Notes under the pieces: generated by a model
The model's database searches: none
Told to the model about the DNA's origin: nothing
The model's input: the letters and a program-made list of their open reading frames with translations, nothing else
DNA from: an uncultured Pelagibacteraceae bacterium
Lineage (GTDB): Bacteria; Pseudomonadota; Alphaproteobacteria; Pelagibacterales; Pelagibacteraceae
Direction of reading: 5' to 3'
Length of the DNA: 64,000 bases
Assembly (NCBI GenBank): GCA_902633335.1
Contig: CACPFY010000004.1
Location: 1 to 64,000, forward strand
Program-made: the position numbers and the translations under genes
Shown here: positions 56,044 through 60,541 of the stretch, piece after piece
How positions within the stretch are numbered: position 1 is the stretch's first letter
How the letters are laid out: the number at the start of each line of letters is the position of its first letter

Positions 56044-57041
56044 TAAAATAAAACTGAAACTTGTTTTAATATTTTTTTTGTGAAAGTTGGTAAAAATTCA
56101 TTGGTATTTTTTATAGAGTACCAAGAGTAATGATTTGGTATGCTTTTTGAGAACTGATAATACAAATTAATATTTAACTTTTTATTTGAAATAGAATTCT
56201 TATATTTTGATAATAATTTCCATTTTTTAAAAGATTTATTGTTTTTAATACTTTCTATTTTCGGCAAGTTGAATTTATTTAAAAAACCCAAATTATTTTT
56301 TTTAGTTAAAGCTATTTCACCCTTTTTAGATAAATAACAAAAAATATTTATGTTTTTATTAACAACTTCTCTCTTTATTTTCCTAATTTTATTTTTAGAT
56401 TTGTAAAATTTACAATTACTCCGGATGGGACATATTCCACATTTTGGAATTTTAGAATTACAGACCAATGCCCCAAATTCCATCATCGCTTCCACGAGGT
56501 CTGAATTTCTGCTGGTATTAAATAGATTTTTTTTATTTATATTTATAAAATTTTCAAAATCTATTTTACTAACTTCCCTATTAAATATTCTTGAAATAAC
56601 TCTTTTCACATTTCCGTCTAGTGCCAATGTTTGTTTGTTGTAAATTAAAGCAGCTAAAACATTTGAAGTATATTCACCAATACCAGGTAGAGTTTTTATT
56701 TCATCAATTTCTCTCGGAAGTTTAGAATTATATTTGTTTACTAATATTTTTGACGTAGCTAAAAGATTTCTAGCTCTCCTGTAATATCCTAAACCCTCCC
56801 ATAACTTAAGAATTTTATTCTCGTTTGCTCTAGATAATGAGTCGAGACTAGCGAATTTTTTTGTAAATTTTTCAAAATAAGGAATAACGGTTTTAACCTG
56901 TGTTTGCTGCAACATAAACTCACTTAATACCCTATAAAAAAGCAAATTAGGTGAATTTTTACCAACACGCCAAGGCAAAGTGCGCTTGTTATTATCATAC
57001 CAAGCTAAAATATTTTTTGTTAAGTTAAACTTTAAATGCAT
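56043..57041 (-). CDS. mutY: MutY, A/G-specific adenine glycosylase
   Basis: Removes adenine mispaired with 8-oxoguanine. It has WYDNNKRTLPWR, SEFMLQQTQV (catalytic Glu), WEGLGYYRRARN, the helix-hairpin-helix LPGIGEYTSN and a 4Fe-4S loop of the C-x6-C-x2-C-x5-C type (from CNSKIPKC to C near residue 210). The C-terminal NUDIX-like domain is degenerate. It diverges from the DUF721 gene with overlapping starts (6 bases), matching the mutY-DUF721-dsbA-smc locus seen in alphaproteobacteria. Confidence 0.95.
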   Translation of the reverse strand: MHLKFNLTKNILAWYDNNKRTLPWRVGKNSPNLLFYRVLSEFMLQQTQVKTVIPYFEKFTKKFASLDSLSRANENKILKLWEGLGYYRRARNLLATSKILVNKYNSKLPREIDEIKTLPGIGEYTSNVLAALIYNKQTLALDGNVKRVISRIFNREVSKIDFENFININKKNLFNTSRNSDLVEAMMEFGALVCNSKIPKCGICPIRSNCKFYKSKNKIRKIKREVVNKNINIFCYLSKKGEIALTKKNNLGFLNKFNLPKIESIKNNKSFKKWKLLSKYKNSISNKKLNINLYYQFSKSIPNHYSWYSIKNTNEFLPTFTKKILKQVSVLF

Positions 57042-57524
57042 AAAAAAAAAACTAATAATAGTTTAACTAAAAATTTCATTCAAGGGCTTAGGCCTTTATC
57101 GAGCACTTTGCCTCAACAAATAAAAAAAGTTTTAAAGAAAAATGGATTTAATTTATCCTCAATTGTTGATAATTGGACAAAAATTATAGGTAATGAGATT
57201 TCAAACAATTGTTATCCTATTAATATAAAGGCACAAGGCAACTCTAAAGATGTAACTTTAATACTCAATGTTATGCATGGAAAAGAAATTGACGTTGAGT
57301 ATAATAAAAAAAATATTATCGACAAAATTAATTCATATTTTGGATATATTTTTATCAAAAATATTCAAATAAAAATTATTAATTCAAAATCAATTAGTTC
57401 AAAAAAAAATGTATCTATGAAAAAAAATAAAAATAACTTTAACGATGAATTGAAAAAAATAAGTGATATTCATTTAAAAAATAAGCTAGAAAAATTAATT
57501 AGTGCCTATGCTGAAAAAAATTAA
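57036..57524 (+). CDS. DciA-like (DUF721) protein
   Basis: A 162-residue protein with the DUF721 core: LSSIVDNWTKIIGNEISNNC, then a strand-rich segment (DVTLILNVMHGKEIDVEYNKK) and a Lys-rich C-terminal part. DUF721 proteins include DciA, the helicase loader/operator of bacteria lacking DnaC, so a replication role is plausible. Position between mutY and dsbA supports the family call. Confidence 0.78.
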   Translation: MHKKKTNNSLTKNFIQGLRPLSSTLPQQIKKVLKKNGFNLSSIVDNWTKIIGNEISNNCYPINIKAQGNSKDVTLILNVMHGKEIDVEYNKKNIIDKINSYFGYIFIKNIQIKIINSKSISSKKNVSMKKNKNNFNDELKKISDIHLKNKLEKLISAYAEKN

Positions 57525-58105: not shown

Positions 58106-60541
58106 ATGAAGTTTAAAAGATTGGAACTTACCGGCTTCAAGTCATTTTTTGATAAAACAACTTTTTTTATTGAAGATGGTTTGACCGGGATTGTTGGTCC
58201 AAATGGATGTGGAAAGTCAAATATTGTCGAGTCATTAAGGTGGTGTATGGGAGAAACATCTGCCAAAAGCATGAGAGGAGCTGGTATGGAAGATGTAATA
58301 TTTGCTGGAACATCAAATAGACCAGAAAAAAATTTCTCTGAAGTGTCTTTATTAATTGATAACAAAGATAAGGATGGTCCAGAGCAATATCATAAATTAG
58401 ATGAAATTTTAATAAGAAGAAAGATTGAGAGAAATAAAGGTTCAAAATATTATTTAAACGAAAAAGAGGTAAGGGCAAGAGACGCTCAAACTTTTTTTGC
58501 TGATTTATCTACCGGCGCTCATTCTCCGTCTTTAATAAGTCAAGGTAAAATTGGACAACTTGTTACTGCAAAACCTGTAGAAAGAAGATCAATTTTAGAA
58601 GAGGCTGCTGGTATAGCTGGTATACATGCTAGAAGACATGAAGCTGAAACAAGACTAAACGCTGCAGAAAATAATCTCAAAAGAGCAGATGAGCTTAAAA
58701 AACAACAACAAAAACAATTAGACAACCTAAAAAAACAAGCTGAGGAAGCTACAAAATATAAAGAAATTTCAAAAGAAATTAGAAGAGCAGAAGCAGGATT
58801 ATACTACCTTAAGTTAATTGATATTGAAAAAAATAAAAAAGAAATTCTTGAAAAAGTAAGCGAGCAAGATGATGAAATAAGTGCGATCAAAATAGACTTG
58901 AACCATAATACAGAATTATTAAATGAGGAAAACGCAAAATTAACTCCTCTGAGAGATAGAAAGTTAGAAAGCTTGGCTAAACTACAAAAAATAAATTTAG
59001 ATATGACTAATTTAGAAGAAAAGGAAAAAAGGATTAAAAAATTATCTGCAAAACTGGAAAGTTCATTATTAACTATTGAGTCTGATTTAGAAAGGGAGAA
59101 AAGTATCTCATTAGACGCATCTCTTAATGAGAAAAGGATCTTAGAAGAAAAAGATGAATTATTAAAAACTGAAAAAGCATTTGGTACTACTGAAGTAGAA
59201 ATAAATGAAAATTTAGAGCTTTCAAAAAGAAATTTAGATGATTTAAAAAAGGAACTTGAAGGTTTAATTTTCGAAATTGGCAAACTTATAGATGAAGATA
59301 AGAAAATACCAAAGGATTTATTTAATAATCTCAAAAATCTAGTTGATAAAATAACATCAGCACATGAAAATTATGCAACTAATTTTAGTAAAAATGAAAC
59401 CGTAAAAAGTGATTCAATTAAGAGAAAAGAAAGAATTAAAAATATTGATATTGAGTTAGAAAATTGGAAAAGTTTAAAAGTAAATTCTGAAAAAATGATC
59501 AATGATTTGCAAGAAAGGAAAAAGAAGATAAATAATGAGATGAGAGAAAATCAAAAAAATCCTGAAATTATTGCTACTACAAAAGGTCAAAATATACAAA
59601 ATTTAGAAAATACGAAAAAAAGAAGTGAGGAGCTTACAGAAGAACTAAATTCTGCAGAAGAAAGATTTAATAAAATAAATAACAATATTAAAGATGTACA
59701 AGAAAAACTTACAATACTGAGAGAAAACAAAGCTAGAAACGAAGCTACTTTAGAGGGAATTGCAACACGAAAAAAAGATTTATTTTATTCAATAAATTCA
59801 GAATTAAATATTACCGACGAAAATAGATTATTATCTCTTGCAGAATTTAATACTGATGAATTGCCGTCCATAGATAATCAAATATCTACTGTAGAAAAAA
59901 TTAAAAAAGAGAGAGAGTCAATGGGCACTGTAAATTTAAGAGCTGACATAGAAACTAAAAAATTTGAAGATGAAATTAAAAAAATGGAAGACGATAGAGC
60001 TGATCTTTTTTCAGCAATTGTAAAGCTTAAATCTAGTATTGAAGAATTAAATCAAAAAGGTAGGGAAAGGCTTTTAGATGCTTTTGAAAAAGTTAATAGA
60101 AAGTTTAACGAAGTTTATACAAAACTTTTTAGTGGAGGAAGTGCAAAACTAGAATTAGTCGATTCAGATGATCCTTTGGAAGCTGGATTAGAAATGTTTG
60201 TTTCACCACCGGGAAAAAGATTACAATCTATAACCTTGTTGTCCGGAGGCGAACAGGCACTTACGGCCTTATCTTTAGTTTTTGCAGTATTTTTAGTTAA
60301 TCCTTCACCTATATGCGTTTTAGACGAGGTTGATGCTCCTTTAGATGATGCTAATGTCACAAGGTTTTGCTCTTTATTAGATGAGTTGACAAGCATAACT
60401 AAAACTAAATTCATTATAATAACACACCATGCTTTAACAATGTCAAGAATGCACAGGTTATATGGAATTACTATGCCGGAAAAAGGTATCAGCCAATTAG
60501 TTGCTGTTGACTTAGAAAAAGCGGAAGAGTTAGTAGCTTAA
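58106..60541 (+). CDS. smc: Smc, chromosome segregation ATPase, unusually short with no recognisable hinge
   Basis: ABC-type head with Walker A VGPNGCGKSN (about 30-39), the alphaproteobacterial FFADLSTGAHSPSLISQGKI block, signature LLSGGEQALTAL (711-722) and Walker B CVLDEVDAPLDD (D740/E741). Between the heads are two coiled-coil arms, about 165-395 and 430-675. At 395-430 only a short stretch with IDEDKKIPKDLFNNLK interrupts the heptads. The roughly 150-residue SMC hinge, with its conserved glycines, is not there. Total length is 811 against about 1150 for typical Smc. The locus order marks it as the Smc orthologue, not RecF, RecN or Rad50. Confidence 0.9.
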   Translation: MKFKRLELTGFKSFFDKTTFFIEDGLTGIVGPNGCGKSNIVESLRWCMGETSAKSMRGAGMEDVIFAGTSNRPEKNFSEVSLLIDNKDKDGPEQYHKLDEILIRRKIERNKGSKYYLNEKEVRARDAQTFFADLSTGAHSPSLISQGKIGQLVTAKPVERRSILEEAAGIAGIHARRHEAETRLNAAENNLKRADELKKQQQKQLDNLKKQAEEATKYKEISKEIRRAEAGLYYLKLIDIEKNKKEILEKVSEQDDEISAIKIDLNHNTELLNEENAKLTPLRDRKLESLAKLQKINLDMTNLEEKEKRIKKLSAKLESSLLTIESDLEREKSISLDASLNEKRILEEKDELLKTEKAFGTTEVEINENLELSKRNLDDLKKELEGLIFEIGKLIDEDKKIPKDLFNNLKNLVDKITSAHENYATNFSKNETVKSDSIKRKERIKNIDIELENWKSLKVNSEKMINDLQERKKKINNEMRENQKNPEIIATTKGQNIQNLENTKKRSEELTEELNSAEERFNKINNNIKDVQEKLTILRENKARNEATLEGIATRKKDLFYSINSELNITDENRLLSLAEFNTDELPSIDNQISTVEKIKKERESMGTVNLRADIETKKFEDEIKKMEDDRADLFSAIVKLKSSIEELNQKGRERLLDAFEKVNRKFNEVYTKLFSGGSAKLELVDSDDPLEAGLEMFVSPPGKRLQSITLLSGGEQALTALSLVFAVFLVNPSPICVLDEVDAPLDDANVTRFCSLLDELTSITKTKFIIITHHALTMSRMHRLYGITMPEKGISQLVAVDLEKAEELVA

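Follow-up and report, generated by a model that had tools for sequence, protein, structure and literature searches.

A hingeless Smc protein in bacteria of the SAR11 order

Models of condensin assume a ring or a rod that is closed by the hinge of Smc. The protein described here comes from SAR11, a group of very abundant marine bacteria (PMC10308909), and it has no such hinge. It is encoded by the smc gene at positions 58106..60541 (+ strand) of the window, i.e., the whole stretch of 64,000 nucleotides that was analysed (contig CACPFY010000004.1 of assembly GCA_902633335.1, from an uncultured Pelagibacteraceae bacterium). The known systems with which it can best be compared are canonical Smc-ScpAB, Rad50/SbcC, engineered Smc variants of B. 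subtilis, archaeal and C. elegans SMC-like proteins, and a hinge-less SMC from ocean metagenomes.

With canonical Smc-ScpAB (TIGR02168), as present in B. subtilis and in Alphaproteobacteria, the window Smc has the heads, the ATPase motifs, the neck, the head-proximal arms, scpA and scpB, and ParB in common. It differs from the canonical alphaproteobacterial Smc by the absence of the hinge, by arms that are approximately 91 residues shorter and by its length of 811 instead of about 1150 residues. Rad50/SbcC also combines an SMC-type head with an antiparallel coiled coil and has no SMC hinge. However, the window Smc lacks the CXXC zinc hook, and the best Rad50 model gives it 40 bits against a cut-off of 1087. 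The engineered Mini-Smc and Smc(zinc hook) proteins of B. subtilis are similar in having shortened arms, whose viability follows a period of 91 residues, close to the arm loss in SAR11, and in showing that no particular fold is essential in the dimerisation domain; these constructs retain a hinge or a hook, whereas the window Smc has neither (PMC5344682). Archaeal ASRP/coalescin proteins share an SMC-related head and a coiled coil, but most of them bear a zinc hook (PMC9389158), and the window Smc scores 63 bits against the ASRP cut-off of 300. SMCL-1 of C. elegans is SMC-like and has no hinge, but it additionally lacks the coils and the catalytic residues and may be a negative regulator (PMC5373644), while the SAR11 Smc keeps its ATPase motifs and arms.

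A 2025 study of ocean metagenomes (Sussfeld et al., PMC12153180) reported a 'hinge-less' SMC from a marine clade that it assigns to Actinobacteria, and as a kind such proteins have been known, if barely, since that publication. This SMC resembles the one of SAR11 in consisting of heads and coiled coil, in having neither a hinge nor a CXXC hook, in its oceanic origin and in the absence of a second regular SMC. It differs in that the authors place their clade near the base of actinobacterial Smc, whereas the SAR11 case concerns an order with many genomes, including members assembled in one contig, for which ScpAB and ParB are known. PMC12153180 does not mention SAR11, Pelagibacter, Alphaproteobacteria or kleisin anywhere in its main text. 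A first-pass annotation of the window, made from the sequence alone, could not tell whether hinge loss had already been described for this lineage. For the kind of protein it has, in marine Actinobacteria; for SAR11, no account of a hingeless Smc was found in the open-licence PMC literature, nor was the order-wide case with ScpAB, ParB and tip remodelling found in open-licence papers.

The same annotation had proposed that the middle of the protein leaves no room for a hinge, and had named a search with a hinge profile, an alignment with SAR11 and other alphaproteobacterial Smc proteins and a search for ScpA and ScpB as ways to check this. The Pfam hinge model PF06470 (SMC_hinge) has zero matches in the window Smc and zero in the window genome. 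This model is insensitive in the class, where it matches in 91 of 289 genomes, mostly weakly. Since PF06470 alone is a weak test in Alphaproteobacteria, a custom hinge profile was built from 31 rows (27 distinct genes), with the hinges excised by their WRWDG-type motif. All nine held-out alphaproteobacterial hinges score between 99 and 188 bits on this profile, some of these rows sharing families with training rows. On 12 Smc proteins from outside Alphaproteobacteria, mostly Firmicutes, it gives 3–12 bits, so that it tests for an alphaproteobacterial hinge. It was applied to 103 short Smc loci (95 distinct sequences) from the window's family (f1), from the sister family in the same order (f159) and from a more distant family outside the order (f24). 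From this set, 78 loci are unreported even at an E-value of 100, and the other 25 reach at best 0.4 bits per domain and 1.4 bits per whole protein.

The structure prediction agrees with the profiles. AlphaFold2 (AF2), run on the monomer with an alignment of 66 Smc rows (62 from f1 and four from f159), places helices at residues 215–396 and 403–567 of the window Smc, the latter with a one-residue break at 484, and between them a helical turn of residues 397–402 (59294..59311). The tip region has block values of 80–90 for the predicted local distance difference test (pLDDT) and contains no strands. For the whole monomer the mean pLDDT is 71.9, and neither the rod nor all of the head region is well placed. 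Foldseek searches against the PDB return SMC-type heads and arms with low template modelling (TM) scores and are uninformative on the tip. The absence of the hinge from the window Smc is confirmed.

Apart from its apex, the protein has the build of a bacterial Smc, as the first-pass annotation had recognised from a continuous frame with both ATP-binding cassette (ABC) half-heads. The open reading frame of 811 residues is uninterrupted and obtains 671.4 bits with TIGR02168 (NCBIfam SMC_prok_B; equivalog cut-off 567.35) and 184.5 bits with Pfam SMC_N. The N-terminal ATPase half-head comprises residues 1–170 (58106..58615; this and all further features of the gene lie on the + strand), as judged from domain matches and the LEEA motif at residues 162–165, and contains the Walker A sequence GPNGCGKSN at residues 31–39 (58196–58222). 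The C-terminal neck and half-head comprise residues 607–811 (59924..60538), as delimited by domain matches and the position of LSGGE, and carry the signature LSGGE (60239–60253) and Walker B with D740/E741 (60323–60328). The split ABC head of a bacterial chromosomal Smc is present with all three elements: Walker A, the signature LSGGEQ and D740/E741 are identical in 66 of the 66 aligned rows. In all 10 short and long Smc proteins compared, LEEA is found at residues 162–165, and the distance from LSGGE to the C-terminus is 100–107 residues. Orthology to the chromosomal Smc, which had been read from the gene order, is supported: TIGR02168 is above its cut-off, the protein is the single Smc match in the window genome (21 contigs, 80.75% complete), and ScpA, ScpB and ParB are encoded in the same genome. 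The window protein is therefore a Smc by descent, yet a non-canonical one, as the hinge is missing.

The arms had been described as intact, which does not hold: they are long and form an antiparallel coiled coil, but each lacks about 91 residues of the canonical length. The N arm spans residues 171–396 (58616..59293), with a single long AF2 helix at 215–396, and the C arm residues 403–606 (59312..59923); both assignments draw on the AF2 model and on an alignment with the canonical alphaproteobacterial Smc of genome G001. In this alignment, residues 2–385 and 423–808 of the window Smc run without net gap, and the apex segment between them, residues 386–422 (59261..59371), in which hinge profiles have no match, places 37 residues opposite approximately 374 residues of hinge and distal arms. 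The segment between the motifs LEEAAG and GxVN counts 437 residues in the window Smc, 424–440 in other short forms of the family, 483–484 in forms of 857–858 residues and 487 in a member of f159. By contrast, it counts 774–777 residues in seven of the eight hinge-bearing Smc proteins of at least 1150 residues in which both motifs were found (799 in the eighth), and 723 in a hinge-bearing Smc of 1100 residues. The canonical hinge profile has its edges at about 489–651; set against the AF2 turn of the window Smc, these give an N arm of about 226 versus 318 residues and a C arm of about 204 versus 295. The loss is thus symmetric, with approximately 91–92 residues per arm besides the hinge, a figure that mixes AF2 helix ends with profile edges and is accurate to perhaps five residues. 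Smc arm lengths have been reported to step by about 100 residues, and shortened arms support viability with a major period of 91 residues (PMC5344682). The correspondence with the arm loss in SAR11 is suggestive only, since the hinge-bearing short Smc of family f141 does not show this step: it lost about 134 and 146 arm residues, as estimated from extrapolated profile edges.

Hinge loss is not restricted to the window genome but is found across the order. In the window's family, 75 of 79 genomes have Smc matches, amounting to 67 full-length frames and eight broken pieces. The frames fall into two size classes, 33 of 798–820 residues and 34 of 857–891 residues, whereas most other members of the class have a Smc of about 1150 residues. 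The 33 include locus L021 (G338, of the window's genus), an otherwise intact hingeless Smc with a single in-frame TAG. In f159, matches occur in 29 of 30 genomes, with 23 frames of 862–868 residues and six shorter pieces that are taken to be cut by contig ends; none of the four f159 proteins read has a hinge by the custom profile. Outside the order, hingeless Smc proteins of 803–817 residues occur in all three f24 genomes looked at (L110, L111, L112). Close matches to the window Smc, named Candidatus Pelagibacter or Pelagibacteraceae, include the metagenome-assembled genome (MAG) MED727 (97%) and AG-422-L15 (92%), isolates with AG- names reaching up to 93%. The single-cell-type records L138 and L140 match residues 1–811 over 2434 bases, one above 811 codons, and seem to hold a one-base indel. 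Genomes assembled in one contig carry the same Smc architecture at 53–60% identity to the window Smc, and among genomes of this kind G098, G207 and G308 have one Smc match each. In a scan of the phylum with a profile named A1 (398 genomes, E-value up to 1e-40), 255 genomes have a match; the window genome (G000) and G098, both SAR11, match the whole profile in a single stretch, 252 others have two matches each, and in G568 (84% complete) the only match has an E-value of 5.4e-73.

Smc lengths were read for part of the class genomes, and some contigs break the gene. From 200 loci, 155 Smc proteins were extracted, the other 45 being ScpA/ScpB regions, cut or broken genes, or proteins off the motif pattern; L021 was dropped from the extracted set for its internal stop. 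The hinge may have been lost once or twice in SAR11 and f24: a tree with SAR11 and f24 in a single clade is not rejected by the approximately unbiased (AU) test (p-AU 0.474), on a topology from which four long-branched canonical rows (L196–L199) were left out and in which the f24 branch is long and of odd composition. In these trees, SAR11 rows were compared with other alphaproteobacterial Smc proteins.

That hinge loss is a mere consequence of short length is rejected by Smc proteins that are shortened and keep a readable hinge. These measure 865–866 residues in f31, 881 in f141, 936–1100 in f50, 961 in f118 and 984 in f60; the hinges of f31, f50, f118 and f60 are in the training set of the custom profile, whereas the held-out 881-residue f141 protein scores 131 bits. 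Arm shortening and hinge loss are therefore separate events. Six such loci, L181 (G030), L182 (G259), L174 (G161), L184 (G118), L185 (G181) and L183 (G270), encode proteins of 865–984 residues with strongly short arms and a hinge resembling KPGQ..V...G..WRWDG. PF06470 has no match in G030, G259, G161 and G270, despite a recognisable hinge.

The partners of Smc are encoded as well. In the window genome, scpA (246 residues) and scpB (227 residues) lie adjacent to each other with a four-base overlap, outside the window; their profile matches are at 90649–91302 and 91371–91832 of contig C3 (G000). The ends of ScpA bind the neck and the head of Smc in known complexes. As the window's ScpA matches positions 1–230 of the 232 in the family profile, these Smc-binding ends are present. 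A ParB helix-turn-helix (HTH) domain is encoded in the same genome, and a ParB domain in 51 of 60 family genomes. Of the 79 family genomes, 61 have a ScpA and 60 a ScpB; for the 33 with a completeness of 90% or more and a contamination of 5% or less, the count is 30 for each protein.

The tip of the hairpin varies. The window form is a plain hairpin, while the 857-residue form is predicted by AF2 to bear an extra helix pair (401–418 and 422–441), with lower confidence around the tip (pLDDT 49 for residues 391–400). Both forms occur within the single genera g225, g226 and g3. A tree of 37 rows (LG+G4, middle columns excluded) requires at least six switches between the size classes, and branches that are well supported, by the Shimodaira–Hasegawa-like approximate likelihood ratio test (SH-aLRT) only, force all six changes, which may be losses, gains or recombination. 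In blocks of 20 residues in the group of 811, 812 and 814 residues, identity is lowest at 361–380 (0.39) and 381–400 (0.44), followed by 0.54 at 401–420, while most head blocks range from 0.80 to 1.0; in the 858-residue group, blocks 381–460 have identities of 0.22–0.29. The ratio of nonsynonymous to synonymous substitutions (dN/dS) for the whole gene is 0.026–0.070 in 10 of 10 pairs, a rough ratio, as dS is mostly above 1 and near saturation. For the apex it is 0.05–0.37 in nine pairs (the tenth has no dS) and exceeds the whole-gene value in all nine. These ratios indicate that smc is under purifying selection and that, between close pairs, the tip is as well, to a lesser degree than the whole gene. 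The cysteines of the window Smc, at 35, 47, 737 and 755, are all outside the apex and form no zinc-hook CXXC; a C..C pattern in the arm or apex region occurs in two of the 103 short Smc proteins.

How two such proteins are held together is a matter of weighing. On balance, we lean towards a genuine, functional chromosomal Smc that lost its apex no later than at the base of the order and of which two copies are held together by the heads and ScpA. The loss comprised the whole hinge and about 91 residues per arm, close to one superhelical period; sequence, profiles and model show a hairpin that retains heads, neck and head-proximal arms and that ends either in a short turn between helices or in a small cap made of helices. 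This Smc would work with ScpA, ScpB and ParB, the genes of which are observed. Two hairpins would be joined by ATP-driven head engagement, one ScpA would bridge the neck of one Smc to the head of the other, the arms would lie side by side, and DNA would be kept mainly in the compartment of heads and kleisin instead of in a hinge-closed ring. This arrangement fits with B. subtilis Smc, in which it is not critical how the dimerisation domain is folded (PMC5344682). Its strongest form, in which the SAR11 condensin would have no apical dimerisation domain whatsoever and act as an open-ended clamp, two hairpins tied by heads and kleisin only, is put forward more tentatively, and we give it somewhat less than an even chance. 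If it were true, a natural ParB-Smc-ScpAB system would need no closed tripartite Smc ring, and the tip would be free to vary.

Several observations weigh against holding by heads and ScpA. Both the SMC hinge and the Rad50 hook link arms at the apex, and these modules are interchangeable (PMC6969161), which makes some apical link usual, so that an apex contact may be required. Low conservation is not confined to the tip, as residues 561–600 have identities of 0.45–0.49 too. Large hydrophobic residues are more frequent in the tip than in the flanking 20 residues in seven of nine groups, with two ties; the tip centre was placed in each row by a formula for which the window protein served as calibration. 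The monomer model has a predicted template modelling score (pTM) of 0.33 and parts of the heads at pLDDT below 50. Moreover, G322, G350 and G289, which are 94–95% complete and encode a hingeless Smc, have no ScpA or ScpB match, possibly because of assembly gaps. Some of these points lend themselves to a close rival, in which the helical tip is a replacement dimerisation module and the ends of two hairpins form a four-helix bundle, much as the zinc hook of Rad50 joins its arms by a different means, giving a closed ring with shorter arms; we regard this as a serious possibility, albeit on the doubtful side. Besides the interchangeability of hook and hinge, the support that a zinc hook gives to B. 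subtilis Smc (PMC5344682) and the raised hydrophobic content, it could account for the extra helix pair of the 857-residue form and for the purifying selection that persists at the tip. The same tip, however, contains the least conserved blocks (361–400), differs in length by clade, and evolves with an apex dN/dS above that of the whole gene in every pair with a value. Nor is its hydrophobic content exceptional within the whole arm, since in eight of nine groups the head-proximal arm equals or exceeds it (in the window's group, 0.32 at the tip and 0.35 near the neck). A tip with the lowest identities and at least six changes in size argues against one specific interface there, and because of this variability, heads and kleisin are ranked above a tip-to-tip dimer.

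The remaining explanations fare worse. Hinge function could be given in trans by a separate protein, or a second SMC-like protein could be the real partner; whole SAR11 genomes were scanned with PF06470 only, a model that misses the hinges of f31 and f141 (G030, G259, G161). Nevertheless, PF06470 finds nothing in G000, G098 and G207, the first being 80.75% complete, and G000, G098, G207 and G308 have one Smc match each, so we deem this improbable. A normal but divergent hinge that goes unrecognised might be suspected from the poor recognition of alphaproteobacterial hinges by Pfam, from the short f31 and f141 proteins (865–881 residues) that retain one and from the limited reach of the custom profile outside Alphaproteobacteria. 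It would have to fit in about 37 residues, in a place where AF2 gives helix-turn-helix only, and to stay, in all 103 loci, at or below 0.4 bits per domain with a profile that finds the held-out f141 hinge at 131 bits; this can hardly be the case. The chance that the gene is decaying or suffered an assembly deletion, the latter already named as a possible objection by the first-pass annotation, is similarly negligible, even though the genome assembly is fragmented and incomplete. The whole-gene dN/dS speaks against decay, many other assemblies share the architecture, including one-contig genomes and AG- isolates, and the 67 full-length frames of 798–891 residues in independent family genomes refute a deletion in assembly. 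What comes out of the comparison with condensin models is an order that appears to dispense with the hinge while retaining heads, kleisin, kite and ParB. Its natural proteins allow a direct test of what the hinge is for, and the occurrence of a short hairpin and a helix-pair cap within single genera provides matched comparisons.

The smc gene is preceded, in order, by a mutY-like HhH-GPD gene on the minus strand, a DciA gene and a gene for a DsbA-like thioredoxin. The second of these, at 57036–57524, had been labelled DUF721 and matches DciA (PF05258, 45.5 bits), the replicative helicase loader. Downstream of smc lie genes of the ATP synthase, namely ATPase_gene1 and those for the A chain and for two B chains. 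In the class as a whole, a search with the window Smc at an E-value of 0.001 finds nothing in 89 of 289 genomes, 60 of which have a completeness of 90% or more. Many of them have weak matches to Smc models only, at about 1e-4 to 1e-12, and Smc may be absent from them or replaced by another SMC-like protein. At the other end of the size range, unusually long Smc frames of 1426–1531 residues are found in G026 and G158 (f27) and in G033, G162 and G260 (f34).

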